Positions 7,683-44,539 of a DNA stretch of 64,000 nt are shown in pieces. Each line of letters opens with the position of its first letter. The stretch's first letter is position 1. Where the stretch lies: positions 1,674,001-1,738,000 of the forward strand of contig NZ_CP030048.1 of NCBI RefSeq assembly GCF_015291665.1, in the 5' to 3' direction. Source of the stretch: Bradyrhizobium sp. CCBAU 53338. GTDB lineage: Bacteria > Pseudomonadota > Alphaproteobacteria > Rhizobiales > Xanthobacteraceae. A model generated the notes under the pieces. It was not told the origin of the DNA, ran no database searches, and saw only the letters and a program-made list of their open reading frames with translations. Made by a program: the position numbers and the translations under genes.

Positions 7683-7683
7683 G

Positions 7684-9573
7684 ATGGCCAAATCCGGGTT
7701 GGCCAGATCCGAGTTGACGGTGTCGGAAGCCGTGGCGCTCTCGGGCGGTCGACACGGGAGCATTGCGCTGCTGCTTCGTTGCAGCGACGCGATCGCGGCC
7801 ATCTTGCTGGCCGCCGATCTCGCGGTCGTGTGCGGCTCCGTGCTGCTGCGCTTCTTCTTCAATGCGCCGGTCGAGTGGTCCGACGACGTCGCGCGCGGCT
7901 TGATGGTCGGATCGGCCTTCTTCGGCGCGGCGAGCGCGCTCGCGCGCGGCGAGAATGTCGGCGTGTCCTTCTTCCGCGATCTGCTGCCGGGGCAACTGCG
8001 TACGCTCGTCGATGCCGCGAGCGCGGTGCTCGTCGTGCTGATCTCCGGCTATGTCGCCTACAACGCGATCAAGCTGGGATCGCTGACATCAGGACAGACC
8101 ACCGGCTCGGGCCTGCCGCTGGAGCTCACCTTCTACCCGATGGGGATCGGCGCGCTGTTCATGACGGTGTTCGCGATCGATCACCTCTGCGCCAGGCCGC
8201 TTCCTGACATTGCAAGGGGGCTCGCTGCGGTCGCCGTCGTGACCGCCCTCTATCTCGCCTGGGATCATCTCTCTCCGTCATCGGTGCCGTCGGCGGGCGC
8301 GCTGATGCTGGTCGGCTTCTTCGCGACGTTGTTCGGCGGTCTGCCGATCGGCTTCGCGCTGGCGCTGGCCGCGCTGATCTTCATCTGGGTCGAGGGGGCG
8401 CTGCCCGGTGTCATCTTCGCCCAGCAGATGGCGCGCGGCATCGACAATTTCGTGCTGCTGGCGATCCCGTTCTTCATCCTGGTCGGCTACCTCATGGAAG
8501 CCAACGGCATGTCGGTGCGATTGATCGAGCTGTTGCAGCGTGCGGTCGGCCGCATGCGCGGCGGCCTGAACGTCGTGATGGTGGCATCGATGGTGCTGTT
8601 CTCCGGCATCTCAGGCTCGAAGATGGCCGATGTCGCGGCCGTCGGCTCCGTGCTGATCCCGGCGGCGCGCCGCTCGAAGCAGAATCCGGGCAGCGCGGTG
8701 GCATTGCTCGCGGCGTCCGCGGTGATGGCGGAAACGATCCCTCCGTGCATCAATCTGATCATCCTGGGCTTCGTCGCAAACCTCTCGATCGGCGGCCTGT
8801 TCATGGCGGGGCTGCTGCCGGCGGCGCTGATGGCGGCGGTGCTGATCGCCTTCTCCATCATCTTCGGCAAGACGCCTGACGACGCCGAGGAGGTCGAGCC
8901 GCAGGTTCCGGTGTCGGGCCTGTGGAGCGGTGCGGTCGCCTCGTTTGGTCTGATCTTCATGATCTTCTTCGGCTTCAAGAGCGGCTTTGCGACGGCCACG
9001 GAAATCTCGGCCTTTGCGGTCGCCTACGCGCTCGTGGTCGGCAGCGTCGTGTTTCGCGAGCTCAGCTTCAGATCGGCCGCGCATAGTTTCGTGCAGGCGG
9101 CGACGCGTGCCGGGCTGGTGCTGTTCATCGTCGCCGCCGCGCAGTCGCTGGCCTTCACGCTGACCTTGCAGCAGGTGCCGCATGCGGTCGGCGACTTCAT
9201 GCTGGGACTTTCCAAGACGAGCGGAACCTGGCTGTTCATCCTGCTCGCCATCGCCGTGCTGATCGTGATGGGCTCGGTGCTGGAGGGCGCGGCCGCGCTG
9301 ATCATCTTCGGGCCGTTGCTGTTGCCGGTCGCGGTGCAGCTCGGCATCGATCCCCTGCATTTCGGCGTCGTGCTTGTCATCGCGATGGGCGTCGGCCTGT
9401 TCGCGCCGCCGCTCGGGCTTGGCCTCTACGGCGCCTGCCTGATCGGCAACGTGCCGATCGAGCAGACGGTGAAGCCGATCCTGGGCTATCTCGGCCTGTT
9501 GTTCCTCTGCCTGCTCGTCATCGCCTTCGTGCCGTGGCTGAGCACCGCGTTGCCGCGCGCATTCGGCTACTGA
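7684..9573 (+). CDS. TRAP transporter fused small/large permease (DctQM)
   Basis: 629 residues. Residues about 25-175 are the small DctQ-type subunit (four helices, with the family-like VEWSDDVARGLMVGSAFFGA). From about 200 onward lies the large DctM-type subunit with some 12 helices (GLPIGFALALAALIFIWVEG, and FSGISGSKMADVAAVGSVLIP in the reentrant region). The protein drives uptake of the DctP ligand using a sodium or proton gradient. It starts 1 bp after the dctP stop and is followed after 12 bp by the dehydrogenase-like gene, so the three probably form one operon. Confidence 0.92.
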   Translation: MAKSGLARSELTVSEAVALSGGRHGSIALLLRCSDAIAAILLAADLAVVCGSVLLRFFFNAPVEWSDDVARGLMVGSAFFGAASALARGENVGVSFFRDLLPGQLRTLVDAASAVLVVLISGYVAYNAIKLGSLTSGQTTGSGLPLELTFYPMGIGALFMTVFAIDHLCARPLPDIARGLAAVAVVTALYLAWDHLSPSSVPSAGALMLVGFFATLFGGLPIGFALALAALIFIWVEGALPGVIFAQQMARGIDNFVLLAIPFFILVGYLMEANGMSVRLIELLQRAVGRMRGGLNVVMVASMVLFSGISGSKMADVAAVGSVLIPAARRSKQNPGSAVALLAASAVMAETIPPCINLIILGFVANLSIGGLFMAGLLPAALMAAVLIAFSIIFGKTPDDAEEVEPQVPVSGLWSGAVASFGLIFMIFFGFKSGFATATEISAFAVAYALVVGSVVFRELSFRSAAHSFVQAATRAGLVLFIVAAAQSLAFTLTLQQVPHAVGDFMLGLSKTSGTWLFILLAIAVLIVMGSVLEGAAALIIFGPLLLPVAVQLGIDPLHFGVVLVIAMGVGLFAPPLGLGLYGACLIGNVPIEQTVKPILGYLGLLFLCLLVIAFVPWLSTALPRAFGY

Positions 9574-9585
9574 GGGAGTGTTGCC

Positions 9586-10563
9586 GTGAAAGTCCTGCTG
9601 GCTCATACGCCGGAGATGCGTCGCAATTATTACGGCGATCGCAGCCTGAATGGCCTGCGTGCGATTGCCGACGTGATCCTGCACGAGGGCGATCAGGCGC
9701 TGGATTCCGCGAGCCTCGTCAGTGCTGCGAAGGACGCCGACATAATTGTCGCCGATCGCATGACCGAAGGCCGCGGCGAGATTTTTGCGCAATTGCCGCG
9801 CCTGCGTGCCTTCGTTCGCTGTGCCGTCGATATCAGGAACGTCGATGTCGATGCCGCCTCGCAAGCCGGCGTGCTGGTGACGCGTGCCGGTCCCGGCTTC
9901 GTGCAGGCAGTCGCCGAGCTCGCGGTCGGCTTCATGGTCGATCTCTCCCGCGGCGTGTCGCGGGCCACCGCCGACTACCAGGCCGGCCGCAAGCCGGAGG
10001 CGCGGATGGGCCGCCAGCTCGCCGGCAGCACGATCGGCATCATCGGCTATGGCAGCATCGGGCGATATCTCGCCGAGATCGCCAAGGTGATGCGTATGGA
10101 AGTGCTGGTCTCCGATCCCTTCGCGACCGTTGCCGACGGCGCCATCAGGCAGGTCACGCTCGATGAGCTCCTGGCCGCATCGGACTACGTCGTCTGCCTC
10201 GCCATCGCCAACGAGCAGACCGAGAAACTGATCGGGGAGGCGGCGCTGGCGCGCATGCGGAAGCAAGCCGTCTTCATCAACCTGTCGCGCGGCAATCTCG
10301 TCGACGAAGCCGCGCTCGCGAAGGCGTTGCTGGAGAACCGCATCGCCGGTGCTGCGATGGATGTCGGCCGCGCACCCGACCAGATGCCGACGCCGGAGCT
10401 GGCAAAGCTGACCAACGTCGTCGCCACGCCGCATGTCGGCGGGCTGACGCCGCAGGCGATCGAATATCAGTCGCTGGAAACCGTGCGGCAGGTCGAGGCG
10501 ATCATCAAGGGCGAGGCCCCGCAGGGCGCCGTCAACGCCGAGCGCTGGACGCGGCGGCCGTGA
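9586..10563 (+). CDS. D-2-hydroxyacid dehydrogenase family protein, catalytic Glu replaced
   Basis: 325 residues from a GTG start at 9586 with GAGGGAG at 9572-9578 as ribosome site. The NAD-binding core has GYGSIG at 154-159. Of the three usual catalytic residues, the Arg is present (R235 in NLSRGNLVDE) and the His is present (H283 in TPHVGG), but the Glu normally found in the DVFxxEP stretch is replaced: the region reads AMDVGRAPDQMP, with Ala263 at the expected position. Such a change would weaken the His-Glu relay, so it may be a slow enzyme, use other chemistry, or act in binding. It is last in the TRAP operon, which suggests that it handles the imported acid. Confidence 0.85.
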   Translation: MKVLLAHTPEMRRNYYGDRSLNGLRAIADVILHEGDQALDSASLVSAAKDADIIVADRMTEGRGEIFAQLPRLRAFVRCAVDIRNVDVDAASQAGVLVTRAGPGFVQAVAELAVGFMVDLSRGVSRATADYQAGRKPEARMGRQLAGSTIGIIGYGSIGRYLAEIAKVMRMEVLVSDPFATVADGAIRQVTLDELLAASDYVVCLAIANEQTEKLIGEAALARMRKQAVFINLSRGNLVDEAALAKALLENRIAGAAMDVGRAPDQMPTPELAKLTNVVATPHVGGLTPQAIEYQSLETVRQVEAIIKGEAPQGAVNAERWTRRP

Positions 10564-15981: not shown

Positions 15982-18585
15982 ATGCTGCCGGGTCCAACGA
16001 TGACTGCTTCCGACTGCCCCGTGACGGACATGCCAGACGTGCTGCGCGCGGCGTTCGAATGCGCCGACGACGGCATCGTCATCGTCGATGGCGCGCATCG
16101 CATCACCCATTTCAACGCCGGCGCTGAGCGGATCTGGAGGCTCGCGCGCGCCGACGTGCTCGGCAGCGATTCGCAAATCCTCTCACTCAAATGCCTTCAG
16201 GCCGATCCAGTCGTTGATTTTCGTGACGAGATCAGCCTGGTGCGGCGCGACAGCAGCCGGATCAAGGTTCTGATTGCACTGTCGTCGGCGACGATCGAGG
16301 GCGTCAGCCATCACATCGTGTTTGCACGCGACGTCACCGCCGAGGCCGAGCGTCGCGTCAGGATCGGGCTGCTCAACGCGGTCTCCGACCAGACCAATCG
16401 CGCGGTGATCATCACCGACGTCGAGCAGAACATCCGTTACGTCAATTCGTCCTTCACGACGCTGTTCGGCTACACCAGCGGCGAAGCCGAGGGGCGGCGC
16501 GCAGGCGAACTGATCGCCGGCTGCCACACCAACCGCACGGCGATTGCGAAGCTGGTCAAGCGGCTGCTCGACGGCGGCCGGCGCGGCGAGGTCGAAACGC
16601 TGGTCTATACCAAGGACGGCGAGGAGATCTGGGTCTCTGCCCGGGTCGACGCCTTCCGCGACAAGAACGGCCGCGTCAAGCACATCTTCGCGTTGCTCGA
16701 GGACATCACCGAGAGCAGGCAATTGCGCTCGCTGCAGCAGCTCATCATGAGCGCGCTCGCCGACGAGGTGCCGATCACCGAGATCGCCGACCGGCTGTGC
16801 CGCCGCGTCGAGCAGATTGCGCCTGACGTCGTCTGCTCGCTGCTCCATGTCGATTCCGCAGGTCTGATCCATCCGCTCGGCGGTCCGAGCCTGCCGGATG
16901 ATTATTCCCGCGCACTGGACGGCATCCCGATCGGCCCCAATGTCGGCTCCTGCGGCACCGCGGCATTCTATGGCGAGCCGGTGCTGGCCGAAGATCTCGA
17001 CACCGATCCGCGCTGGCAGCCCTACAAGGCCATGCCGCTCGAAGTCGGGCTTCACGCCTGCTGGTCGACACCGATCAAGGCCAAGGACGGCCGTGTCATC
17101 GCCACCTTCGCCTTCTACTTCCGTGAGCCGCGCGCACCGAGCAACTGGCACCGGCGCATCGTCGATGCCTGCGTCAACCTCGGCGCCTTCGCGATCGAGC
17201 GCAAGGAGGCGCGTGCCGAGATCGCGCGGCTCGCCTATCACGACATCCTCACCGGCCTGCCGAACCGCGCGCAGCTGCGGCACCTGATCACGACCGCGAT
17301 CGATGCCTGTCCGACCGGCGGGCATGTCGCACTCGCCTTTCTCGACGTCGATCATTTCAAGGACGTCAACGACACGCTCGGCCACGCCGCCGGCGACGAG
17401 CTGCTGATCCAGCTGGCGCAGCGCCTGCGTGAGCAGATCGGTCCCGAGGACATGCTGGGCCGCCTCGGCGGCGACGAATTCGTCATCCTGCTGCCCAGCC
17501 GAAATGCCGAGGGCGCCGAGCGCGTGGCGGCCGGGATTGCCGAGGCGCTGGCTGCGCCCTTGCGGCTCGGATCGAAGCTGATGCCGTTGTCGGCCAGCAT
17601 CGGCATCAGCCTCTATCCCGATCATGCCACCGACATCGACACGTTGATGCAGCAGGCCGACGCCGCCATGTACATGGCCAAGCAGGCCGGACGTTCGACC
17701 CATCGGATGTTCTCTGCCGAGATGAACGGCCTCGCCGAGCAGCGGCTGGCGATGATCGCGGCGCTGCGCCGTGCCATCGCCGACAATGCGCTGAGCCTGA
17801 GCTACCAACCACAGATCCGCAGCGGCGACGGCGCCATCCACGGCGTCGAGGCGCTGGCACGCTGGCACGATGCCGCGCTCGGCGATGTCTCGCCGGCAAG
17901 GTTCATTCCGCTCGCGGAAGAATGCGGCCTGATCGAGCAGATCGGGCTGTGGTCGGTGCGCGAGGCCTGCCGGCAGATGGCGAGCTGGCGCAGCGCAGGA
18001 CTCAACATTCCCTCCGTCTCGGTGAATCTGTCGCCGATCAATTTCCGCAACGTCACGCTGGCCGCGCGGCTCGAGGACATCCTCGCCGAATACCAGCTGC
18101 CGCCGGATGCGCTGATGCTGGAGATCACCGAAGGCACCTTCATGCAGGACGGCGCCGCCGCGCTGGAGACGATGCACGCGATCCGTGCGCTCGGCATTGG
18201 CCTGTCGGTCGACGATTTCGGCACCGGCTATTCCAGCCTCAGCCGCCTCGCGCATCTGCCGATCCGCGAGCTGAAGATCGACCGCAGTTTCATGCGCGAC
18301 ATCGAGAAGGATGCCGGCGCGCTGGCGATCGCCACCGCCGTGGTGCGCGTAGGCCAGGGCCTCGGCATGACCGTCGTCGCCGAAGGCGTCGAGACCGAGG
18401 GCCAGCGCAAGATGCTGGCCGAGCTCGGCTGCGACGTCGTCCAGGGCTTCCTCTACGCCCCCGCGCTCGCGCCTGTCGCCTTCGAGCGCTGGCTGATCGA
18501 GCATTGCGCCGAGCAGGCGAGGGCGATGCTCGGCCGGCTCGATGTCAGGCCGGTGGATCTTAGTGCGGTGAAGCGATCGGCTTAG
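15982..18585 (+). CDS. PAS-PAS-GAF-GGDEF-EAL protein (c-di-GMP signalling)
   Basis: 867 residues from the ATG at 15982; an ATG at 16000 is an equal choice. There is no signal peptide or membrane segment, so it is cytosolic. Order: a PAS domain at about 15-120 (AFECADDGIVIVDGAHRITHF), a second PAS with PAC at about 130-250 (IITDVEQNIRYVNSSFTTLF), a GAF domain at about 260-410 (GPNVGSCGTAAFYGEPVL), GGDEF at 496-500 and EAL at 623-625. Both catalytic motifs are intact. The order recalls the DosP-like oxygen or redox sensing group, but whether a heme is bound cannot be judged. It probably adjusts c-di-GMP in response to an internal signal. Confidence 0.92.
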   Translation: MLPGPTMTASDCPVTDMPDVLRAAFECADDGIVIVDGAHRITHFNAGAERIWRLARADVLGSDSQILSLKCLQADPVVDFRDEISLVRRDSSRIKVLIALSSATIEGVSHHIVFARDVTAEAERRVRIGLLNAVSDQTNRAVIITDVEQNIRYVNSSFTTLFGYTSGEAEGRRAGELIAGCHTNRTAIAKLVKRLLDGGRRGEVETLVYTKDGEEIWVSARVDAFRDKNGRVKHIFALLEDITESRQLRSLQQLIMSALADEVPITEIADRLCRRVEQIAPDVVCSLLHVDSAGLIHPLGGPSLPDDYSRALDGIPIGPNVGSCGTAAFYGEPVLAEDLDTDPRWQPYKAMPLEVGLHACWSTPIKAKDGRVIATFAFYFREPRAPSNWHRRIVDACVNLGAFAIERKEARAEIARLAYHDILTGLPNRAQLRHLITTAIDACPTGGHVALAFLDVDHFKDVNDTLGHAAGDELLIQLAQRLREQIGPEDMLGRLGGDEFVILLPSRNAEGAERVAAGIAEALAAPLRLGSKLMPLSASIGISLYPDHATDIDTLMQQADAAMYMAKQAGRSTHRMFSAEMNGLAEQRLAMIAALRRAIADNALSLSYQPQIRSGDGAIHGVEALARWHDAALGDVSPARFIPLAEECGLIEQIGLWSVREACRQMASWRSAGLNIPSVSVNLSPINFRNVTLAARLEDILAEYQLPPDALMLEITEGTFMQDGAAALETMHAIRALGIGLSVDDFGTGYSSLSRLAHLPIRELKIDRSFMRDIEKDAGALAIATAVVRVGQGLGMTVVAEGVETEGQRKMLAELGCDVVQGFLYAPALAPVAFERWLIEHCAEQARAMLGRLDVRPVDLSAVKRSA

Positions 18586-18600
18586 GCGACCACTTTCTTT

Positions 18601-19221
18601 TCATGAGCTAAAGTCCGTCGCCAATCCCGTCCTGCGCCGCAAATCCGTGATCGCGCGCAAGAAGCTGTCGGCCGGCGTGGTCTCAGGGTCGATCAGGCGG
18701 TGAAGGCGGAAGCCGTCGTCCAGCGCCAGCACGACGGAGGCCATCCAGGGCGGGTTCAGCGTCTCGCCCTTGGCGCCGTCCTTCAATGTCGCCTCGATGA
18801 TGTCGGCGATCAGCTTGCGTCGCGCCCGCAGGCGCTTGGCGAGTTCGGGCCGGCGCTTCTCGGCGCGTGCGACGAACAGGATCATCTCGATATGCAGGAG
18901 GGGCGAGCGGGCGAGGGGATCCTGCCGGCCGAGATCCATCGTCTTCAAGGCTGCGATGAAGTCGTCCAGATTTTTGTGCCGCGCCAGGATCTCCATGTTG
19001 CGCCGGATCGATCGCTCGACATGGTCCTCGAGCATGGCAAAGATCAGTTCGTCCTTGCTCCCGAAATTCGAATAGAACGCGCCGCGGGTGAAGCCCGCCT
19101 CCGCCGCGATCGCCTCGATGCTGGCGCCGCCGATGCCGTCCTGTTCGAACACGCGTGCGGCCGCCTCGAACAGCGCCTCGCGCGTGTCGTCCCTGGTCGG
19201 TCTGGTTCTTACCCTTGACAT
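18601..19221 (-). CDS. TetR family transcriptional regulator
   Basis: 206 residues. The N-terminal helix-turn-helix is clear (AARVFEQDGIGGASIEAIAAEAGFTRGAFYSNFGSKDEL, residues about 20-58). The C-terminal ligand domain is of the common TetR type. It is divergent from the P450 gene, and a strong palindrome lies between them, 22 bp upstream of its start codon. This arrangement points to a repressor of itself and the P450 that is released by the P450 substrate or a related compound. Confidence 0.9.
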   Translation of the reverse strand: MSRVRTRPTRDDTREALFEAAARVFEQDGIGGASIEAIAAEAGFTRGAFYSNFGSKDELIFAMLEDHVERSIRRNMEILARHKNLDDFIAALKTMDLGRQDPLARSPLLHIEMILFVARAEKRRPELAKRLRARRKLIADIIEATLKDGAKGETLNPPWMASVVLALDDGFRLHRLIDPETTPADSFLRAITDLRRRTGLATDFSS

Positions 19222-19243
19222 CGAGCCATTTTAGGGCAGAATG

Positions 19244-19271
19244 CAACTCGATACAACAATGTATCGAGTTG
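19244..19271. promoter_or_regulatory. TetR operator between regulator and P450
   Basis: A perfect inverted repeat: CAACTCGATACA at 19244-19255 pairs with TGTATCGAGTTG at 19260-19271 around a 4-bp centre. Twelve-base arms with a GATACA...TGTATC core are typical in size and form for TetR operators. It lies in the only gap between the divergent TetR and P450 genes. Confidence 0.75.
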
Positions 19272-19351
19272 ATAATTCACAGGGATGGTTACGCCGGGCT
19301 TCGGGGCAGGCCTCGCGTATCGTGTCATGCGGCAACCGATGTGAGGTCACC

Positions 19352-20581
19352 GTGAACGAGCAAGTGCAACCCGCAGGCGGACCGCTGTTCAACCCGCTGT
19401 CGCCGGACTTCATCCGCGACCCCTATCCGCATTACGAACGGCTCCGTACGATCGATCCGATTCATGTGACGCCGTTCGGCCAGTTCGTCGCCAGCCGCCA
19501 CGCCGACGTCAGCCTGGTGATGCGCGACAAGCGCTTCGGCAAGGATTTCGTCGAGCGCTCCAAGCGCCGCTACAGCCCCGAGATCATGAACGAGCCGGTG
19601 TTCCGCAGCATGAGCCATTGGATGCTGCAATCCGATCCGCCCGATCACACCCGCCTGCGTGGCCTCGTCGTGAAGGCCTTCACCGCCCGCCGCGTCGAGG
19701 ACATGCGGCCGCGCATCCAGGAGATCGTCGACCAGGCGATCGATGCCGTGATCGACCGCGGCCACATGGACCTGATCGAGGATTTCGCCTTCCGCCTGCC
19801 TGTCACCGTCATCTGCGAGATGCTCGGCATTCCCGAGGATCATCGCGAGGTCTTCTACAAGAGCTCGCGCGACGGCGGGCGGCTGCTCGATCCGGTGCCG
19901 CTCTCGCCCGAGGAGATCGCCAAGGGCAACGCCGGCAACATGATGGCGCAGATGTATTTCCAGCAGCTGTTCGAGCTGCGCCGCCGCAATCCCGGCGACG
20001 ACCTCATCACCCAGTTGGTGCAGGCCGAGGAAGACGGCAACAAGCTCACCAACGAGGAGCTGACCGCCAACATCATCCTCTTGTTCGGCGCCGGCCACGA
20101 GACCACCGTCAACCTGATCGGCAACGGCCTCCTGGCGCTCCATCGCAATCCGGACCAGCTCGCGCTGTTGAAGGCGCAGCCGGACCTGATCACCAACGCG
20201 ATCGAGGAGTTCCTGCGCTACGATTCCTCGGTGCAGATGACCGGGCGTGTCGCGCTGGAGCAGATCGACGATCTCGGCGGCAAGACCATCCCCAAGGGCG
20301 AGACCGTCCTTTGCCTGCTTGGCTCTGCCAATCATGATCCGGCGGTCTATCCCGACCACCCCGACAGGCTCGACATTACCAGGCCGAACGTTCGGCCGTT
20401 GTCGTTCGGGGGCGGCATCCATTTCTGCCTGGGTGCCCAATTGGCGCGGATCGAGGCCGAGGTCGCCATCGCCACGCTGCTGCGGCGGCTGCCGGATTTG
20501 CGCATCGACGACGTCGAAAACCCGGAATGGCGCCCGACCTTCGTGCTGCGGGGCCTGAAGCAGCTTCCGGCCAGCTGGTAG
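19352..20581 (+). CDS. Cytochrome P450
   Basis: 409 residues from the GTG at 19352, chosen for the GAGG 8 bp upstream and because it starts just before the conserved PLFNPLSPDFIRDPYPHYERLR. An upstream in-frame start near 19241 would overlap the operator. The I-helix motif LFGAGHETT, the K-helix EFLR and the heme loop FGGGIHFCLGAQLAR with the ligand Cys359 are all present. Length and motifs fit a soluble class I bacterial P450 of the CYP107/CYP123-like kind that needs separate ferredoxin and reductase, which are not encoded nearby. The substrate is unknown. Control by the divergent TetR regulator is likely. Confidence 0.93.
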   Translation: MNEQVQPAGGPLFNPLSPDFIRDPYPHYERLRTIDPIHVTPFGQFVASRHADVSLVMRDKRFGKDFVERSKRRYSPEIMNEPVFRSMSHWMLQSDPPDHTRLRGLVVKAFTARRVEDMRPRIQEIVDQAIDAVIDRGHMDLIEDFAFRLPVTVICEMLGIPEDHREVFYKSSRDGGRLLDPVPLSPEEIAKGNAGNMMAQMYFQQLFELRRRNPGDDLITQLVQAEEDGNKLTNEELTANIILLFGAGHETTVNLIGNGLLALHRNPDQLALLKAQPDLITNAIEEFLRYDSSVQMTGRVALEQIDDLGGKTIPKGETVLCLLGSANHDPAVYPDHPDRLDITRPNVRPLSFGGGIHFCLGAQLARIEAEVAIATLLRRLPDLRIDDVENPEWRPTFVLRGLKQLPASW

Positions 20582-33069: not shown

Positions 33070-34425
33070 AACCGGCTACATGGGTAACAGAATAGACCGG
33101 CGACATGGGTAACAGGTCAACTGTCGGCAGGGAGGACCCTGCCGATGGGTTGGAAGGAGACCTGTGCCGTGGAAGAGCGGATGCGCTTTATGGTGGCGGT
33201 TGAGAAGGGCGAGGAGTCGTTTGCCGCGATCTGCCGGCGGTTCGATGTAAGCCGCCGGATTGGATACAAGTGGCTGGCGCGCTTCGAAGAGGAAGGGGTT
33301 GCCGGTCTGCTCGACCGTTCGCGAGCGCCGGCGCATCATCCGCAAGCAATTGTCCCGAAGGTCGCGGAGCGCTGCCTCGAGGTGCGTCGGGCACATCCGA
33401 CCTGGGGGCCGAGGAAGGTTCGGGCCTATTTGAAGCGCGCCGCGCCCAAAACGGCTTGGCCGGCGACGAGCACGATCGGGGAGCTGTTCGACCGCGAGGG
33501 GTTGACGGTGAAGCGCAAGCTGCGCCGGCGTAGCCCGCCATCGAGTGCGCCGTTTGCCGGTTGCGAGGCCGCCAACGACGTCTGGTGCATCGACTTCAAG
33601 GGTTGGTTCCTGACCGGCGACGGCAAGCGGTGTGAACCGCTGACGTTGACCGACGCTCATAGCCGCTACCTGTTGCGCTGCCAGGCCCTCTCCCGGACGG
33701 ATACCGACCATGTCTGGCCGGTGCTGGATGCGGCCTTCCGCGAGTTCGGGCTGCCCCGTTACCTGCGGTCGGACAACGGCTCTCCCTTTGCGTCGACCGG
33801 CGCGGGCGGGCTGTCGCAACTGTCGGTGAAACTGATCAAGGCCGGCGTGACGCCGGAACGCATTGCCCCGGGCAAGCCGCAGCAGAACGGCCGTCACGAG
33901 CGCATGCATCTCACTCTGTTGCAGGATGTGGCCAATCCGCCGGCGCACAGCATGCGCGAACAACTGAAGCGACTACGCAGCTTCCAGCGGCTCTACAACG
34001 AAGAACGTCCGCACCAGTCACTCGACGATGCGACGCCGGCCGAGCGCTATCGAGCTTCACCGCGACGCTTCGACGGCATCCTGCGCTCGCCGGAGTATGG
34101 AGATCGGGAGGTGCGCCGGGTTCGGCACAACGGAGAGATCAAACTCGACGGCAAGTTCATCTACATCACCGCAGCTCTGGCGGGTGAGCCGGTCGGCCTG
34201 GCTGAAGCTGAAGATGGCTGGATAGTCAGCTACGGCCCGATCACGCTCGGCACCATCGCTCACCATGCAGACGAACTGCGACGCCCTAAACGCAAAGGCC
34301 GTGGACTTGGGGACAACGCTGCGCGTTGCCCCCAGGGTCCACAGCCCCAACAACAACAGACCTGAACGAAACGAGAATTGTGTTACCCATGTCGTCGGTT
34401 TGATCTGTTACCTATGTCGCCGGTT
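33070..34425 (+). mobile_element. Insertion sequence, IS481-type, complete
   Basis: 1356 bp bounded by inverted repeats of about 45 bp: 33070-33115 against 34380-34425 in reverse complement, 39 of 46 positions the same. Each end contains two direct copies of an ACCGGCGACATGGGTAACAG-type unit, spaced about 26 bp apart, so the four copies may be transposase-binding sites. One intact transposase gene lies between. I could not see a target site duplication next to the ends. The element sits between the hydroxylase gene and a minus-strand small gene and interrupts neither. Confidence 0.8.
33145..34365 (+). CDS. IS481 family transposase
   Basis: 406 residues from the ATG at 33145 with GGGAGG at 33130-33135 upstream. 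The N-terminal helix-turn-helix (ESFAAICRRFDVSRRIGYKWLARFEEEGVAG-type region, residues about 24-55) is followed by an rve-type DDE integrase core: Asp in WCIDFKGWF, Asp in LRSDNGSPFAS and Glu in QQNGRHERMH. The length is normal, and no frameshift is seen, so the element may still be active. The C-terminal 100 residues form a beta-rich extra domain typical for the longer members. Confidence 0.9.
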   Translation: MGWKETCAVEERMRFMVAVEKGEESFAAICRRFDVSRRIGYKWLARFEEEGVAGLLDRSRAPAHHPQAIVPKVAERCLEVRRAHPTWGPRKVRAYLKRAAPKTAWPATSTIGELFDREGLTVKRKLRRRSPPSSAPFAGCEAANDVWCIDFKGWFLTGDGKRCEPLTLTDAHSRYLLRCQALSRTDTDHVWPVLDAAFREFGLPRYLRSDNGSPFASTGAGGLSQLSVKLIKAGVTPERIAPGKPQQNGRHERMHLTLLQDVANPPAHSMREQLKRLRSFQRLYNEERPHQSLDDATPAERYRASPRRFDGILRSPEYGDREVRRVRHNGEIKLDGKFIYITAALAGEPVGLAEAEDGWIVSYGPITLGTIAHHADELRRPKRKGRGLGDNAARCPQGPQPQQQQT

Positions 34426-36158: not shown

Positions 36159-36194
36159 GGCTCGAGCATATTCAGTCGATGAGAATGCAACACG

Positions 36195-39100
36195 TCAAAG
36201 CAGGTAGTCATGGGAAGCAGGTACGACCGCATGATGCGAACCGCCATTGCCGTGGCTCGCGGCATGCTCGTCCGGCGCAATGGCGGTCGCCTGGACGATC
36301 ATATCGAGGTCCTTTTGCTGGCCGGGCGGAACGTGCGAATCGAGCAGGTTGTCGAGCTGTTGAGGTTCAACGACCGCGGCGGCGGGTGCCGTCGCCAAAT
36401 TATCGAAGCGGAACACCAGTTCCGGATCTGCTCCGCTGGCCGCGGACGCAGCTTGAGCCGGCTGTGCGGCGTCGACCGCGCCGGTTGCGTCGCTCGGTAC
36501 GACGATCTCGGCTGTATCAGGCGGGCTTGCAGGAGCCGACTGTGCATCGTGACCGGAGTTGCCGTGTTCGGTCGGGTCTGTCGTCGTCACTGCCGCTGAC
36601 GCATCCGCGATGTCCGCAGCCGGATCGTGATGCCCGTTGCCATTGCCGCCGCTATTGCCCGGCGTGGGGTCGGCTTCAGCCGACGCCGTGGCCGCCGCCT
36701 TTGCAGGCCCTGGCTCCGACGCGTGCTGTGAGTTGCCGGGGCCCGCGCTGTCGGCCGTTGCGACGTCCGGATCGACGCTCTGAGTTGCATCTGGTGTGCT
36801 TGCAGAGGCTACCTCTGCATCGTGGCCCGAGTTGCCGTGTTCGGTCGGGTCTGTCGTCGTCACGGCCGCTGACGCACCCGCGACGTCCGCAGCCGGATCG
36901 TGATGCCCGTTGCCATTGCCGCCGCTATTGCCCGGCGTGGGGTCGGCTTCAGCCGACGCCGTGGCCGCCTTTGCAGGCCCCGGCTCCGACGCGTGCTGTG
37001 AATTGCCGGGGCCGGCGCTGTCGGCCGTTGCGACGTCCGGATCGACGCTCTGAATTGCATCTGGTGAGCTTGCAGAGGCTGACTCTGCATCGTGGCCCGA
37101 GTTGCCGTGTTCGGTCGGGTCTGTCGTCGTCACGGCCGCTGACGCATCCGCGATGTCCGCAGCCGGATCGTGATGCCCGTTGCCATTGCCGCCGCTATTG
37201 CCCGGTGCGGGGTCGGCTTCAGCCGACGCCGTGGCCGCCGCCTTTGCAGGTCCCGGCTCCGACGCGTGCTGTGAGTTGCCGGGGCCCGCGCCGTCGGTCG
37301 TTGCGACGTCCTGCCCGACACCGTCGGCTGCTTTCGACGCGTTTGCGGAGGCTGGGTGATCGGAGTTGCCTTGTTCCTTGTCGTGTGCTTCTGCCGCCTG
37401 GGCTGAGCCTTGCTCCGAAGCGTTCTGCGAGTTGCCGTGGCTCGCACTGTCGGCCGTTACGACGCCCGGTTCGACACTGTCGGCCGCGTCCGTCGCGTTT
37501 GCGGAGCCTGAGTGATCGGAATTGCCGTGTTCCTTGTCGTGTGCTTCTGCCGCCTGGGCTGAGCCTTGCGCCGAAGCGTTCTGCGAGTTGCCGTGGCTCG
37601 CGCTGTCGGCCGTTGCGGCATCGGGTTCGGCGCTGTCGGCCGCGTCCGTAGCGTTTACGGAGGCTGAGTGGTCGGAGTTGCCATGCTCCTTTTCGTGTGC
37701 CTGCTGCGAGTTGCCGTGGCTCGCGCTGTCGGCCGTTGCGGCGTCGGGCTCGGCACTGACGGCTGCGTCCGCGACGCTTGCGGAGGCCGAGTGGTCGGAA
37801 TTGCCGTGCTCCTTGTCGTGTGCCTGCTGCGAGTTGCCGTGGCTCGCGTTGTCGGCTGTTGCGGCATCGGCGGTACTGACGGCTGCGTCCGCGACGCTTG
37901 CGGAGGCCGAGTGGTCGGAGTTGCCGTGCTCCTTCTCGTGTGCCTGCTGCGAGTTGCCGTGGCTCGCGCTGTCGGACGTTGCGACGTCCTGCTCGACACT
38001 GTCGGTTGCGTTGGCAGAGTTTGAGTGTCCGGAATTGCCGTGCTCGTTGTCGTGTTCTTCTGAAGCCGCGGCGCGATGCTCGCCGCTGCTGCCCGGTGCG
38101 GAGTCGGCTTCAGTCGCCCCTGTGGCCGTCACCACGCTCGTTTGGACGATCTCGCTCTGGGCCGTCGACGAGACACTCGTGTTCGCATTGGTCGGCTCAC
38201 TCTTCGATGCGGGATTTTCATTTGCCGCAACCGTCACCCGATGAGCATGCACGACTGATGATGGGGGAGCAGACGCGGCAGGCGGGCCATCGCTCTCCTC
38301 CGTTGCATCCGCCGGATCGCCGGTGAAACTGACTGACCTCGCCGAGTTCCCTGAGCCGTCTCCGATCTGCCGGAACAGGAACCTTGAACCGTCGTCGGCC
38401 AGAATGCTCCAGGCGCCTGAAGTCCCGAATGCGCCGTCGCTCGATCCGGCGGTGCCCTGGACATTGTCGGTGCTCAGCGCAGTCTCTTCGGTTGCGATCG
38501 CCGATGGCAACGCTTGTTCGAGCTGCTCCAGTGTGACCGCGATGGAAGCGGCTTCCGGCTGAGCGACGAAATCCGACTCCGCAACGGAAACGATCCCCTG
38601 CAGATGGACTTCCACCAGGCCGCGATCGCCGATATCGAGGCTATGATCGGTCGAATTTACATAGACGATCGTTTCGTTGCTTGCGGCGTCGTAGATCCAG
38701 GCAAGGGTGTGTGGCGGTATCGACTTGCTTGCTGCCGTCATATGCAGCCAGGCGAGCGCTCCGAAAGCCTCGAGACTGATCCTGCTCGATCCGGATGCGA
38801 AATCGAAGGCGGAGGCGGACGAGGTCGAACTGGAATCGCTCGGGGGAGGCTGAACGGCGTTTTCACCAACGTGGCCCTCGATCATTTGATCGCGGCCATA
38901 TGCTTCAGCGCCGGCATCGTGACCAAGGTCCGTTGAGCCAACGGGTTGGAGGTTGTCCCCCACGGCGCCATCGCCGGTTTGGCCCCGAGGTTCTCCAGCG
39001 GCGCTTTCGTGCCCGGTGGTCACACCAGCGGAAGGCTGGTGGGACTCAGGGAAAGCCGGGGCCGGGTCGTCGACATGATGAGAGCCCGCGTCGGTGATCG

Positions 39101-40364
39101 CGGCCAGTTTTGTCGTCGCATTTTCTCCAGCCGGACCCAGGAAACCGTCGATGGACCCTTTGCCCGCCTCGTGCGCCTGTGCGGCAAGATGCGGGTCGTT
39201 CAGCGCGTAGATCAACGCGCCGGTGAGAGCGGCGAAGGTGCCATACCCTCCTTGAAACGACATCGGATTGGAGGGAGGGGGTGGGAGTTGATGGTCCGGG
39301 GGCAGGTCACCAAGCTGCGCGTCGCTGGCACCTCTCGGCAAAAGCGCAGGAAGACTGGGCGTGCTCGATCCTACGGGACCGTGGTCATTCCACGGTTTGG
39401 GGCCTCCAACCTGCTCGGCCGCGCGCAGCGCTTCCATCGCCGTCGCCGCGGTCGTGACTTGGCCCATCTTGGCGAGAAAGTCTCGAAGGGTAGGCGGAGG
39501 CGTCTCGCTGGATTCCCAGGCGATGCGGTGCCGGAGAATGGCCTTCTTCCAGGGCTCATACTCCGTATGCTGGCTCGCGTGGCCGATGCTGCCGTCATTC
39601 GAAAGCCTGTCGTTCGCTCCCGACGCCTTGACCGCTTCCGACGCCTTGAGTTCGTCCTCGATGGCGAACGCCAGGAAGGCCAGCGCGAGGGTGCCGAAGA
39701 CGGAGGTGCGTTGCAACAACGCGATGGTCGCGAGCACGGTCCTGTTGGTGATCTCGAGCTTCTGGAAAATATTGTGAAGGTGGACCTTGACCGTCCCCTG
39801 GGACACGTTGATCTGGCGCGCGATCTCCTTGTTCGACATGCCTTCCGACACCAGTCGGACAATTTGACGTTCCCGTTGCGTCAATTGCCCTAGCAGCTTT
39901 TCAATTTTGCCGACGTCAGCGTCCTTGCCGGCCGGCGAGAGATCGGACCGCTCCAGCGACACGCCGCGCTTCGCCATCAGCCTCAGCGATCGCAGCATCG
40001 TCTCGGGGGAGTCGTACTTCGAGATTGCGCTGCAGGCGCCGGCAGCAATGGCTGCGGCCAGTTCGTGGTCGGTGTCGGATTCGGTAAAGAACACCAGGCG
40101 CGTGGGAAGGTTCTCGGCTTTCACGATCGCCAGGATCTCGGATACCGTCAGATCCGGCAGGGTGTCCGCAACGAGCGCGACGTCGGGTGTCAGATTCCGG
40201 ATGGCTTCGAGGCAGCTCGTCCCGTCGCTGGACGATGCGACCACGTCGAATTCCTGCTGCGCCCCCAATACCGACTTCAGTCCCTGCAGAACGATCGGTT
40301 GTCGGTCTACGATCACGAGCCGGATGCGCTGAAATATCCACTGCTTCGCAGTCACGTCTAACAT
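36195..40364 (-). CDS. LuxR-type regulator with degenerate receiver and HGNS-repeat tail
   Basis: 1389 residues from the ATG at 40364, chosen for GAGG 8 bp upstream; a first in-frame ATG at 40427 lacks a ribosome site. Residues 13-135 form a NarL/FixJ-type receiver, but the acidic pair is VDRQ instead of DD, and an ungapped alignment puts Ala66 where the phospho-acceptor Asp belongs (VALVADTLP); Thr94 and Lys116 remain. Residues 161-219 are an intact LuxR helix-turn-helix (LTQRERQIVRLVSEGMSNKE). A hydrophobic stretch follows at 220-235 (TSVFGTLALAFLAFAI). Next comes a Pro-rich linker, then a beta-type segment at about 520-600 (HTLAWIYDAASNETIVYVNS). The tail at about 769-1310 is made of Asp/His/Asn/Ser-rich repeats around EHGNSxH and SHGNSQ. 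Function unknown; possibly a membrane-tethered regulator with an external sensor, or an adhesin-like fusion. Confidence 0.8.
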   Translation of the reverse strand: MLDVTAKQWIFQRIRLVIVDRQPIVLQGLKSVLGAQQEFDVVASSSDGTSCLEAIRNLTPDVALVADTLPDLTVSEILAIVKAENLPTRLVFFTESDTDHELAAAIAAGACSAISKYDSPETMLRSLRLMAKRGVSLERSDLSPAGKDADVGKIEKLLGQLTQRERQIVRLVSEGMSNKEIARQINVSQGTVKVHLHNIFQKLEITNRTVLATIALLQRTSVFGTLALAFLAFAIEDELKASEAVKASGANDRLSNDGSIGHASQHTEYEPWKKAILRHRIAWESSETPPPTLRDFLAKMGQVTTAATAMEALRAAEQVGGPKPWNDHGPVGSSTPSLPALLPRGASDAQLGDLPPDHQLPPPPSNPMSFQGGYGTFAALTGALIYALNDPHLAAQAHEAGKGSIDGFLGPAGENATTKLAAITDAGSHHVDDPAPAFPESHQPSAGVTTGHESAAGEPRGQTGDGAVGDNLQPVGSTDLGHDAGAEAYGRDQMIEGHVGENAVQPPPSDSSSTSSASAFDFASGSSRISLEAFGALAWLHMTAASKSIPPHTLAWIYDAASNETIVYVNSTDHSLDIGDRGLVEVHLQGIVSVAESDFVAQPEAASIAVTLEQLEQALPSAIATEETALSTDNVQGTAGSSDGAFGTSGAWSILADDGSRFLFRQIGDGSGNSARSVSFTGDPADATEESDGPPAASAPPSSVVHAHRVTVAANENPASKSEPTNANTSVSSTAQSEIVQTSVVTATGATEADSAPGSSGEHRAAASEEHDNEHGNSGHSNSANATDSVEQDVATSDSASHGNSQQAHEKEHGNSDHSASASVADAAVSTADAATADNASHGNSQQAHDKEHGNSDHSASASVADAAVSAEPDAATADSASHGNSQQAHEKEHGNSDHSASVNATDAADSAEPDAATADSASHGNSQNASAQGSAQAAEAHDKEHGNSDHSGSANATDAADSVEPGVVTADSASHGNSQNASEQGSAQAAEAHDKEQGNSDHPASANASKAADGVGQDVATTDGAGPGNSQHASEPGPAKAAATASAEADPAPGNSGGNGNGHHDPAADIADASAAVTTTDPTEHGNSGHDAESASASSPDAIQSVDPDVATADSAGPGNSQHASEPGPAKAATASAEADPTPGNSGGNGNGHHDPAADVAGASAAVTTTDPTEHGNSGHDAEVASASTPDATQSVDPDVATADSAGPGNSQHASEPGPAKAAATASAEADPTPGNSGGNGNGHHDPAADIADASAAVTTTDPTEHGNSGHDAQSAPASPPDTAEIVVPSDATGAVDAAQPAQAASAASGADPELVFRFDNLATAPAAAVVEPQQLDNLLDSHVPPGQQKDLDMIVQATAIAPDEHAASHGNGGSHHAVVPASHDYLL
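36540..38065 (-). repeat. Coding tandem repeats (HGNS family) in the LuxR-type gene
   Basis: Two repeat classes are visible. In 36540-37290 three near-identical units of 273 and 270 bp (anchor GAGTTGCCGTGTTCGGTCGG at 36556, 36829 and 37099) encode 90-91 residues each. In about 37290-38065 shorter units of 40-52 residues recur around ASHGNSQQAHEKEHGNSDHS. The high DNA identity of the long units points to recent duplication. The array is fully in frame in the minus-strand gene. Confidence 0.85.
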
Positions 40365-40464
40365 GGACTGTGCCTCGGCCCGGCGATCTATGTCCTTCGG
40401 CATATGGCCGGGGCCGGGTGGGGGCATTAAAATACAATTAATCGTTGGTAGAAAGAGACTTAGC

Positions 40465-40476
40465 AGGGTTAACCCT
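40465..40476. promoter_or_regulatory. Palindrome between divergent LuxR-type and NTF2-like genes
   Basis: AGGGTTAACCCT is a perfect 12-bp palindrome. It lies about 100 bp upstream of the LuxR-type start at 40364 and 39 bp upstream of the NTF2-like start at 40516. Its size and place fit an operator, possibly for the LuxR-type protein itself. Confidence 0.4.
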
Positions 40477-40515
40477 ACCTAAATCGCGCGTCTCGACGGT
40501 ATACAGGTGTGGAAT

Positions 40516-40842
40516 ATGACCTTTGACCCAATGGCCGTGGCGGTTGACTGGCTGGATGCCTACCGCGCTGGGGATATTGAATCGATTTTGGATATGTATG
40601 CCGATGACGCCGTGGTTCGCTGCGGCTTCGGCTCGGTCAAGACCATCACCGGCCGCGAGGCACTTCGCGCCGATTGGATCGATCGCCTCCGCAAGTATCC
40701 GGCAGGCACGTTGGACGATCTCAATCCCTACCACGACGGAACCATTCTCTCGTACGTCACGAGTTCCGGCGTGGTCAGCGCGCTCTTTGAGTTCGACGCC
40801 GCTGGGCGGATCAAAGAGCTGAACCTGGCTCCGACCCACTAG
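40516..40842 (+). CDS. SnoaL/NTF2-like small protein
   Basis: 108 residues from the ATG at 40516 (a GTG at 40507 is also in frame). The pattern VDWLDAYRAGDIESILDMYADDAVV, followed by a C-terminal beta sheet (VVSALFEFDAAGRIKELNLAP), is that of the SnoaL-like NTF2 fold, used by isomerases, dehydratases and binding proteins. It is divergent from the LuxR-type repeat protein and could be under its control. Confidence 0.8.
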   Translation: MTFDPMAVAVDWLDAYRAGDIESILDMYADDAVVRCGFGSVKTITGREALRADWIDRLRKYPAGTLDDLNPYHDGTILSYVTSSGVVSALFEFDAAGRIKELNLAPTH

Positions 40843-42342: not shown

Positions 42343-42720
42343 TCAACTCGGAAAGCACGCCTGAGCCGTTAGCGTCACCGGCGACAGATTGAGTATTTGT
42401 GGAAATTGGAACGCGTAACTTGCGCTCACCTGGTTGCCACAGTTCGACGCCGAATAAGCGAATGTCTGCGCCGGAAGGGCGAGTCCGAAGGCTTGCTGCG
42501 CGGCGTAGCCTGTGATGGCGCCGCTGTTCGGACACAGCGATGGATTGACGGTCGCACACCGCGCGGCCATTTCAGTCCCATGTTGAAGGCCGAGTTGAGT
42601 CCAGAAAAGCAATCCAAACTCGATGATGCCAAATAGGAACAGAAAAAAAACGGGGGCGGTCAGTGCAAATTCCAGCGCCGTTGTCGCCCGATTGTCTGCC
42701 CATATCGCTGCGAGCTTCAC
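42343..42720 (-). CDS. TadE-like pseudopilin
   Basis: 125 residues. The N-terminal region NRATTALEFALTAPVFFLFLFGIIEFG is the TadE pattern: an acidic residue five positions into a hydrophobic helix, as in type IVb pseudopilins that are processed at the membrane. The rest is a short extracellular domain with four Cys residues. The start overlaps the upstream stop (ATGA). It is third in a minus-strand group of three Tad-type genes. Confidence 0.85.
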   Translation of the reverse strand: MKLAAIWADNRATTALEFALTAPVFFLFLFGIIEFGLLFWTQLGLQHGTEMAARCATVNPSLCPNSGAITGYAAQQAFGLALPAQTFAYSASNCGNQVSASYAFQFPQILNLSPVTLTAQACFPS

Positions 42721-43235
42721 TGCAGCCTCGTCGTGGATTGGGCATTGTATGTGTACGCGACTGCGATGATCTGGTAGTTGATCAGTGTATAGTAGGTCGC
42801 TTGGGCCGAGACAGTCGCATAAGTACCAGCCTGCGCGCCGCCCGTGCAGACCGTGCCGGCGCTCACAACGCTCACCCCTGTGCCCGTCGGGCAGCCGTAG
42901 AATTTAACCGGTCCGGGTGAAGCCGTAACGGCAGTGGAGTTGGTTGCGCTCGTTACGGCGCTCGAGATGCCGCTCGCGTCAAAGCCGTGAATGATCGCGT
43001 ATTGCGCTCCGGCTTGCGCCGCGTCCTCGACCTGCATCTTGCGAAAGACCGCGAGCCCGATGTCAGTCACTGAAACGACCATGAGCGACAGTATCGGGAT
43101 CATGATCCCGAATTCGATGGCTGCGACGCCTCGCTCATCATGGATGGCAGCGCGCACGCCCCTCGCCAGGGCTTCGAACATGCGACCACGGCTTCCAGGT
43201 GACGATTTCCGAGTTCGCGTCATGGCCGACCTCAT
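42717..43235 (-). CDS. TadE/TadF-like pseudopilin
   Basis: 172 residues from the ATG at 43235, chosen because it overlaps the upstream stop as ATGA; a longer frame starts at 43352. The TadE-type segment HDERGVAAIEFGIMIPILSLMVVSVTDIG lies near residues 30-60, followed by VEDAAQAGAQYAI, also typical. The C-terminal domain is Ser/Thr/Gly-rich. It should be part of, or linked to, a Flp/Tad pilus or a related secreted structure. The core Tad machinery is not in the window. Confidence 0.82.
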   Translation of the reverse strand: MRSAMTRTRKSSPGSRGRMFEALARGVRAAIHDERGVAAIEFGIMIPILSLMVVSVTDIGLAVFRKMQVEDAAQAGAQYAIIHGFDASGISSAVTSATNSTAVTASPGPVKFYGCPTGTGVSVVSAGTVCTGGAQAGTYATVSAQATYYTLINYQIIAVAYTYNAQSTTRLQ

Positions 43236-44539
43236 TCGACGAGTTGGGCAGTTTGCGAGCCGATCGTTGCAGTGCCGCCGAGCGCGGAGCAATCGACCTG
43301 GAGATTCGAGGTGCCGGTGAATGTCAGCGTGTCCGCAATGATCTTGGTGCACGAGGTACTCGTACCGTTGCCGCCGCTGAAACTGAGATTTGCCTTCGGC
43401 AGATAGATGGCTCCCCCGAAGTTCTGCGTGCTGCCTCCGGTGAGGTTGAAAGCGGTTCCGGCCGGCATCTTGCGGTCGCCATAGATGACGATTCCCTGCG
43501 TGGAGCCGCTGGTTGGCGCCGTCAGGTTGATGTTCGCGTTGCTGCCGATCGAAGCGGTTCCCCAGTCACTGCCCGAGCCCGTAAACACCAGGGTCACGCC
43601 AGTGCCGGTAATCGTGGCGTTGCCCGCGACGCTCAAATTGGCGCCGTCGAGGTAATAGATGCCGGGATTGAGGTTCAACGTCGCTCCGGCGTTGACCGTG
43701 ATACTGCCGCTGTAGCAGCCGGGGTCGAGGGAACTGGTCTTCCCGTTGGAATTGACGGTGATCTTGGCGTTGGTGCAACTCGGCTCCGAGGGAGGAAGCA
43801 CGTTCGCATAGGGATCGGCAATCGGTTGAACGTGCGTTTTAACGCCGTTGGTGGTCGTGATGCTGCTGGCCCCGGATACATCGCCGACCACTCCGACCTG
43901 GTTGGCAGAAACGGTCGCGCTGCCAGCAACGTTGAGCGATGGGCTTGCGCCGGAGTTGCTGTAGAGGTTGCACTTGATCAGATTGAGCTGGTTTCCTCCG
44001 CTTACGTTGACGGCTGGGCTCGCGCTCGAATTGAGTGCAAGCACGCAGCCTGTCCCGGAATTGGGGAGGGCAACCGCCCGCGCGGTGATGAGGACGGGAT
44101 CCGAGCCGAACAACGCCGACAGCAGCCGCTGTTGTGGCTGACTCACGACGACCTCGATTGCCTGGAGATTGGACGTATATCTGCCGGCTTTCGGCGGATT
44201 ATTTACCGCAACCGTGACGTTGTTCACCGAATTCGAGTAGCCGTAGTTCGCTGTGACGGCGTCGGCTTCCGCCAATATATCCCCGCCGGCGCTTGCGGCC
44301 GTTGCAGCGCTCACGGCGCCGGAGTCGGCCGCACTTTGCATGTTCTTGTGCTTATAGTACCACCATCCGACCTCGGTTCCGAGGCCGGCCGTGCCGACCA
44401 GAACGGGCATCAGCAGCGCGGAAATAATGACGTAGCTGCCCGACTGATCTCGGACAAATTGCCGGAATATCCCACTGGCGTCGTGGCCTGTGATTTTTCG
44501 GTGGGGCGGCGAAGCGCGCAGTGTTTGTCTGATATCCAT
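43232..44539 (-). CDS. TadG-like protein with beta-repeat domain
   Basis: 435 residues. Residues about 30-75 are the TadG/TadE-type N-terminus (RDQSGSYVIISALLMPVLVGTAGLGTEVGWWYYKHKNMQSAADSGA, segment with hydrophobic helix). Residues about 165-420 are rich in Asn, Ser, Thr, Gly and Val with a repeated short strand pattern (SGGNQLNLI, SVAGNATITGTGVTLVFTG), which suggests a beta-helix-like stalk. TadG proteins are anchored in the inner membrane with a long external part and serve Flp pilus assembly. First gene of the three-gene operon. Confidence 0.82.
   Translation of the reverse strand: MDIRQTLRASPPHRKITGHDASGIFRQFVRDQSGSYVIISALLMPVLVGTAGLGTEVGWWYYKHKNMQSAADSGAVSAATAASAGGDILAEADAVTANYGYSNSVNNVTVAVNNPPKAGRYTSNLQAIEVVVSQPQQRLLSALFGSDPVLITARAVALPNSGTGCVLALNSSASPAVNVSGGNQLNLIKCNLYSNSGASPSLNVAGSATVSANQVGVVGDVSGASSITTTNGVKTHVQPIADPYANVLPPSEPSCTNAKITVNSNGKTSSLDPGCYSGSITVNAGATLNLNPGIYYLDGANLSVAGNATITGTGVTLVFTGSGSDWGTASIGSNANINLTAPTSGSTQGIVIYGDRKMPAGTAFNLTGGSTQNFGGAIYLPKANLSFSGGNGTSTSCTKIIADTLTFTGTSNLQVDCSALGGTATIGSQTAQLVE

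Follow-up and report, generated by a model that had tools for sequence, protein, structure and literature searches.

The 64,000-nucleotide stretch of the Bradyrhizobium sp. CCBAU 53338 genome analysed here (contig NZ_CP030048.1, positions 1,674,001 to 1,738,000; the window) carries a minus-strand gene at 36195–40364, stop codon included, for a protein of 1389 amino acids (aa). This protein joins a receiver and a LuxR-type helix-turn-helix (HTH) to a long tail that descends from an adhesin. The open frame runs from 36195 to 40427. The start is placed at the ATG at 40364, and in-frame ATGs at 40403 and 40427 are possible alternatives. Full-length orthologues support the extent of the gene.

The fusion recurs widely in related bacteria. 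A database search with the window protein returned 299 matches, and all 120 that were listed show both PF00196 and PF00072. A genome scan found 99 relatives, of which 80 loci were kept: 53 are fusions, with the receiver–HTH and the tail segment in one frame, 24 start with a FecR-like module and three have neither. The tail segment resembling Peptidase_M10_C (M10_C) is present in 18 of 40 genomes of the genus, and a receiver–HTH precedes it in 14 of the 25 matches, from 14 genomes. A sample of the family gave matches in five of 149 genomes, four of them from the window's genus; in the fifth (G152) the 902 residues read lack an HTH, the N-terminus lying outside them. Fusion loci from metagenome bins are titled Beijerinckiaceae (L075), Alphaproteobacteria (L082) and Hyphomicrobiales (L113), and the other fusion loci belong to Bradyrhizobium or a Bradyrhizobium bin (L072). 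The one-frame arrangement at 53 of 80 loci and in 14 of 40 genus genomes agrees with the initial annotation in treating regulator and tail as one real protein; an assembly join of two genes is rejected.

The regulator occupies the N-terminus. Pfam places a Response_reg domain at residues 17–125 (39990–40316, minus strand; PF00072, E 3.7e-10) and a GerE HTH at residues 160–215 (39720–39887, minus strand; PF00196, E 6e-20), both over cut-off. The receiver aligns without gaps to NarL (1a04). Ala66 falls at the position of the acceptor Asp, Asp20–Arg21 at the acidic pair and Lys116 at the conserved Lys. After reduction of the 120 listed homologues to 78 that are distinct at 95%, Asp20 and Lys116 are invariant (78/78 each), 77 sequences have Ala at position 66, and position 21 holds Arg in 59 and Pro in 16. 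The HTH is nearly invariant. Outside this set, position 66 is Asp in L074 and Ser in L091, two deep-branching fusions. The degenerate receiver and the intact LuxR HTH, both proposed earlier from the letters alone, are thus borne out.

The AlphaFold model is confident only for receiver and HTH. Foldseek ranks VraR, LiaR, ChrA, StyR and FixJ at the top, with NarL within the top 15. The combination of receiver fold and GerE HTH that marks a NarL/FixJ response regulator is present, and regulators of this kind (NarL, VraR, LiaR, FixJ) have the same two domains in the same order and are the best matches in sequence and fold. The window protein differs from them in some 1170 additional residues of adhesin origin and in its receiver: the NarL alignment shows neither the phospho-acceptor Asp nor a complete acidic pair. 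Because of Ala66 and Asp20–Arg21, it is grouped with the NarL/FixJ family only as an atypical relative. The receiver–HTH part is probably an orphan NarL-type regulator, expected to act independently of phosphorylation. VpsT and CsgD are comparable as atypical (pseudo-receiver) LuxR-type proteins in which an HTH accompanies a receiver-like domain without standard phosphorylation. VpsT is among the matches of both the sequence and the fold comparisons. To our knowledge, regulators of this type carry neither an adhesin passenger nor a type 1 secretion system (T1SS)-type C-terminus.

The tail begins with a hydrophobic stretch at residues 222–236 (39657–39701, minus strand, as for all features of the gene), shared with T1SS-type adhesins that lack a regulator. 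A linker follows at residues 237–336 (39357–39656). A second, weaker hydrophobic stretch lies at residues 372–388 (39201–39251), with a Kyte-Doolittle median of 1.01 and a value of at least 1.6 in none of the 120 listed homologues. Next come a beta-type segment at residues 521–600 (38565–38804), homologous to the closing part of Peptidase_M10_C in RTX adhesins, and an acidic repeat region at residues 775–1270 (36555–38042), recognized by its composition and by 19 xGNS repeats that start between residues 775 and 1267. The net charge across residues 735–1300 is -79. The C-terminal element, residues 1315–1389 (36198–36422), has a counterpart in the adhesins and ends in HDYLL. AlphaFold gave a mean confidence score (pLDDT) of 45.8 and shows beyond the HTH only a weak beta core at residues 550–590. 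Long open reading frames (ORFs) on the plus strand, one of 490 aa, face the repeat tail at 36179–37651 and are probably a by-product of the GC-rich repeats.

The origin of the tail can be traced through related adhesins. The best own-genome match besides the gene itself is P0123, a protein of 1587 residues encoded 54 kb away. It carries cadherin-like repeats, RTX repeats and Peptidase_M10_C (Pfam) together with VCBS repeats (NCBIfam), and ends in HDLLV. Its start resembles that of the relatives P0137 and P0174, where PF04773 (FecR) scores just under cut-off. A database search with the post-RTX part of P0123 yielded 67 proteins. Among them, P0166, P0167, P0168 and P0173 contain receiver and HTH, and P0163, whose sequence begins after the receiver, contains the HTH. 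All five share the hydrophobic stretch, contain cadherin-like sequence and M10_C, and have a tail that closes with HDLIV. In Pfam, RTX repeats are over cut-off in P0163, P0166 and P0173, under cut-off in P0167 and not listed for P0168. A further search (630 matches, 120 listed) supplied P0213, whose 1582 residues hold receiver, GerE, cadherin, RTX and M10_C, all over cut-off. P0213 (216–1582) and the FecR-RTX adhesin P0174 (90–1405) align at 61% identity over 1385 columns, beginning at the hydrophobic stretch and continuing to the final residue; ahead of the stretch P0213 (1–210) is receiver and HTH, and P0174 is FecR-like. The window protein aligns in turn with P0213 over residues 11–336, which include the linker, and 521–693, at 51% each (BLASTP). 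These two sets of alignments identify stretch, linker, beta-type segment and tail end as adhesin-derived. Judged by sequence, the tail, hydrophobic stretch included, is thus that of a T1SS-type cadherin/RTX adhesin. The surface-protein-like character first noticed in the tail is confirmed and extended, since this origin offers a route out of the cell. Likewise on alignment, the window class, in which HGNS repeats are present, has lost the cadherin and RTX repeats and retained the C-terminus. No source of the HGNS repeats was traced. PF08548 is precomputed for three of the 120 listed fusions (P0017, P0024 and P0035). The M10_C-like profile by itself found no significant solved structure relative; the whole adhesin P0174 matches serralysins across its M10_C-like part.

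The C-terminus is the most constant part of the tail: length and repeats vary among the listed homologues and the end does not. An acidic residue followed by three hydrophobic residues closes 108 of the 120 listed fusions (DLLI in 88); the other 12 end differently, and several of these are labelled partial or are seemingly cut or out of frame. The same ending is found in 59 of 61 further proteins from the post-RTX search, against a background of 10 in 4342 other complete ORFs, real or not, from the loci. Over the last five codons, pairwise differences by codon position are 0.17/0.08/0.36, and over the three preceding codons 0.29/0.43/0.33 (46 of 47 complete genes, with Thr also allowed in the motif). 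This pattern, as expected of a selected end, points to purifying selection on the protein terminus. Asp followed by three hydrophobic residues is described as the ending of AprA-type proteases in one study (PMC2642768).

Two trees bear on the order of events, one of the receiver–HTH (37 rows) and one of M10_C (28 rows, 86 columns); P0213, found later, is in neither. In the receiver–HTH tree the window class forms one group (100/99) and unfused relatives form another (92/84). The window class joins the RTX-type fusions (86/88, under the tool's star level), which by themselves group at 41/34. The FecR-RTX adhesins P0165 and P0174 cluster with both classes of fusion in the M10_C tree (99/96). The unfused NarL-type relatives, of 222–275 aa, lie near the fusion gene at eight loci, about 3 kb upstream in L042, L044, L045, L053, L060, L069 and L085 and on the other side in L068. 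They keep the acceptor Asp in 8/8 cases and have the Asp–Arg acidic pair in 7/8. Among six RTX-type fusions the acceptor position is Asp in one, Glu in four and Gly in one; it is Gly in P0213. Deep members of the window class have Asp (L074), Ser (L091) or Ala (L085, L102, L113). Loss of the acceptor therefore accompanies the fused state, not in every member, and the Asp–Arg pair predates it. The comparisons indicate that a T1SS-type cadherin/RTX adhesin exchanged its FecR-like N-terminal module for a NarL-family regulator, in the simplest case a single time. One fusion followed by repeat loss would be the simplest reading, which the trees do not prove.

The genome also encodes the export machinery to which such an end would be addressed. 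Two PrtD-type T1SS transporters score over cut-off, each with an HlyD gene. PMC9298526 describes PrsDE substrate genes scattered across a Rhizobium genome, so that missing linkage to a T1SS is no bar to its use. A BLAST search with both own PrtD-type proteins (1e-30) found no match beside the fusion in any of the 80 loci, each taken with flanking DNA reaching at most 10 kb to either side. At a wider range, six of 38 distinct fusion genomes have a PrtD-type match (E <= 1e-150) no more than 30 kb from the fusion, the window's own genome having none; the 38 combine sets of 14 and 27, the latter drawn from 30 loci, with three genomes common to both, and many are drafts. These matches are upstream and on the same strand in G005, G018 (identical with G197), G191 (12.9 kb), G210 (17.8 kb) and G189 (27.4 kb), and 13.4 kb off on the opposite strand in G019. 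The upstream set of G005 comprises HlyD, an ABC transporter and an Ig-like/RTX protein, and that of G018 is similar by eye. The six cases may represent one inherited block. At L135 of genome G019 (6797–10490 and 16478–19685), a C39-peptidase ABC transporter and HlyD lie about 2 kb upstream of the fusion, with a PrtD-type/HlyD pair further up.

Around the gene, a divergent SnoaL-like gene (40507–40842, plus strand; PF12680) is the only widely kept neighbour found, at 38 of the 53 fusion loci. ORF clustering gave no other neighbour as widely kept as this gene (37–38 loci), the next real-looking groups reaching 8–10 loci; at 12 of the 53 loci the sequence stops short of 7 kb on the upstream side or 5 kb on the downstream side. 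The intergenic region between the two genes (40428–40506) is partly conserved in an alignment of 37 of 39 sequences, two having been dropped for length. It contains the palindrome GGGTTAACCC, which with AT-rich conserved blocks makes up a candidate binding site. Just downstream of the fusion gene lies a convergent single-domain receiver gene (PF00072; 35442–35804, plus strand), which was not found in the 53 fusion loci. A transposase-like ORF recognized by eye (33145–34365, plus strand) is about 1.8 kb away on the same side, whose genes are not kept in those loci. TadE/TadG-type pilus genes (42343–44539, minus strand) lie upstream and were likewise not found there.

A mechanism can be proposed from these features. 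The N-terminal third would be a DNA-binding unit acting in the cytosol without phosphorylation. A PrtD- or PrsD-type T1SS would engage the C-terminus and thread the acidic tail outward, C-terminus leading, and the folded receiver–HTH, unable to pass, would be left in the cell. Its binding to DNA would thereby signal whether the tail is engaged in export, or what state the exposed tail is in; probable targets are the gene of the regulator itself and the SnoaL-like gene divergent from it. T1SS substrates are moved unfolded. In PMC4648471, folded eGFP placed N-terminal to HlyA stalls the T1SS: the C-terminus is then outside, and the eGFP stays in the cytosol. The regulator occupies the end expected to leave last, which is the place of the FecR-like module in the adhesins; with the eGFP result, this makes a stalled or export-titrated regulator plausible. 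We give about an even chance to a cytosolic, phosphorylation-independent DNA-binding regulator whose tail is engaged by a T1SS, coupling transcription to export. Its more specific form, a trans-envelope transcription factor with the tail through the T1SS channel, the head in the cytosol, both membranes spanned and transcription set by the degree of export, is possible and distinctly more doubtful.

Several observations weigh against export coupling. The window protein has no GGxGxD, i.e. no RTX repeat, and P0213, P0163 and P0166 have such repeats; Pfam gives no match over threshold on its own M10_C-like segment. The nearest PrtD gene of the genome is more than 1 Mb away, and no T1SS gene was seen by eye in the window. 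PrtD-type transporters occur in 40/40 genus genomes and the receiver–HTH fusion in 14/40, so that presence of a T1SS is necessary and not specific. The acidic residue of such a C-terminal motif is reported to be dispensable in one lipase (PMC2642768), and a stalled substrate blocks its transporter (PMC4648471), a cost that the model has to explain. An ordinary cytosolic orphan regulator is accordingly a serious, if lesser, possibility. The tail would then be an unexported leftover, at most a disordered acidic region affecting solubility, oligomerization or targets, and the C-terminus would be kept for some other reason. Disappearance of the RTX and cadherin repeats, the lack of confident structure in the tail, the nearly invariant HTH and the missing T1SS linkage all suit this explanation. 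It is less at ease with a C-terminal motif that is common to the adhesins and kept, and with an end that stays constant as length and repeats change.

The remaining explanations are improbable to differing degrees. The initial annotation saw a possible membrane-tethered one-component sensor, with external repeats that might sense metal, surface or matrix. On this reading the stretch after the HTH would be a Sec-type signal anchor and the tail periplasmic or outside. The fusion of a regulator to a surface-like tail stands; anchoring by the stretch is weakened. The stretch is conserved, and AxA-ADP, by eye similar to a signal-peptidase site, comes after it in the adhesins and the RTX-bearing fusions; in P0158 the stretch opens the protein. 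In P0155 and P0158, adhesins without the FecR-like module, the stretch with its AxA-ADP end is N-terminal or nearly so, as a Sec signal peptide would be. Its core is short, however, and its best 19-residue Kyte-Doolittle mean has a median of 1.60 and a maximum of 1.81, with at least 1.6 in 59 of the 120 listed homologues. For comparison, membrane proteins of the window (six) score 1.96–2.99 and soluble ones (four) 1.04–1.75, so the stretch is borderline and still admissible as a membrane segment. AlphaFold models it as a helix at low confidence. Adhesins that lack a regulator have it too, by alignment, which means that tethering a regulator was not its original role, and a Sec route has no need of a T1SS-type C-terminus. 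Membrane anchoring is at best weakly indicated, and the tethered regulator is unlikely. Export of the entire protein, with the HTH binding extracellular DNA in a biofilm matrix, would fit the T1SS-type end and the secreted kind of the parental adhesins. It is also quite improbable: the HTH hardly varies in its recognition part, a constancy presumably beyond the need of unspecific binding; the intergenic region and the divergent gene have in part been retained; and fast folding should hinder passage (PMC4648471). An artefact joining two genes could draw only on the 12 aberrant endings and is effectively refuted by the recurrence of the one-frame fusion.

The window protein resembles several known systems in part. 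The FecR-VCBS/cadherin-RTX adhesins of Bradyrhizobium (P0123, P0174 and P0165) have in common with the window protein the stretch, the M10_C-like segment, the C-terminal element and the final motif; they differ in having a FecR-like module in place of the receiver–HTH, and the cadherin and RTX repeats lost from the window class. Tethered one-component regulators of the ToxR/CadC type have a cytosolic DNA-binding head of a different HTH class, a clear single transmembrane helix and a Sec route. The head-inside layout is alike, with the rest possibly across the membrane, but the window protein has a borderline stretch and a T1SS-type end. FlgM, the anti-sigma factor of the flagellar export route, reports secretion status through its own export; the idea is similar, although FlgM is not a DNA-binding T1SS-like protein. 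LapA-type adhesins are held at the surface by a folded N-terminal retention module, the last part to leave. In the window protein this position is taken by the receiver–HTH. A likeness of the FecR-like module to a retention module is tentative, and NCBIfam gives no retention-module family for P0123, P0174 or P0165.

The component parts are known; a trans-envelope state, if demonstrated, would belong to a new category. At the level of titles and abstract openings, the literature searched contains no receiver–HTH/adhesin-tail fusion, and PMC3034196 and PMC8277102 give general background only. The series from unfused regulator through regulator with full RTX adhesin (P0213) to regulator with reduced tail would allow stepwise testing of the exchange and of what followed from it. 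The conserved fusion of a DNA-binding switch with an adhesin tail and apparent export signal suggests a regulator tied to protein secretion. Even if export has been lost, it would be an example of a secreted adhesin turned into part of a regulator. If a T1SS engages the tail, a gene switch would have been made from a secretion substrate, and the cell would read its own adhesin export with one protein.

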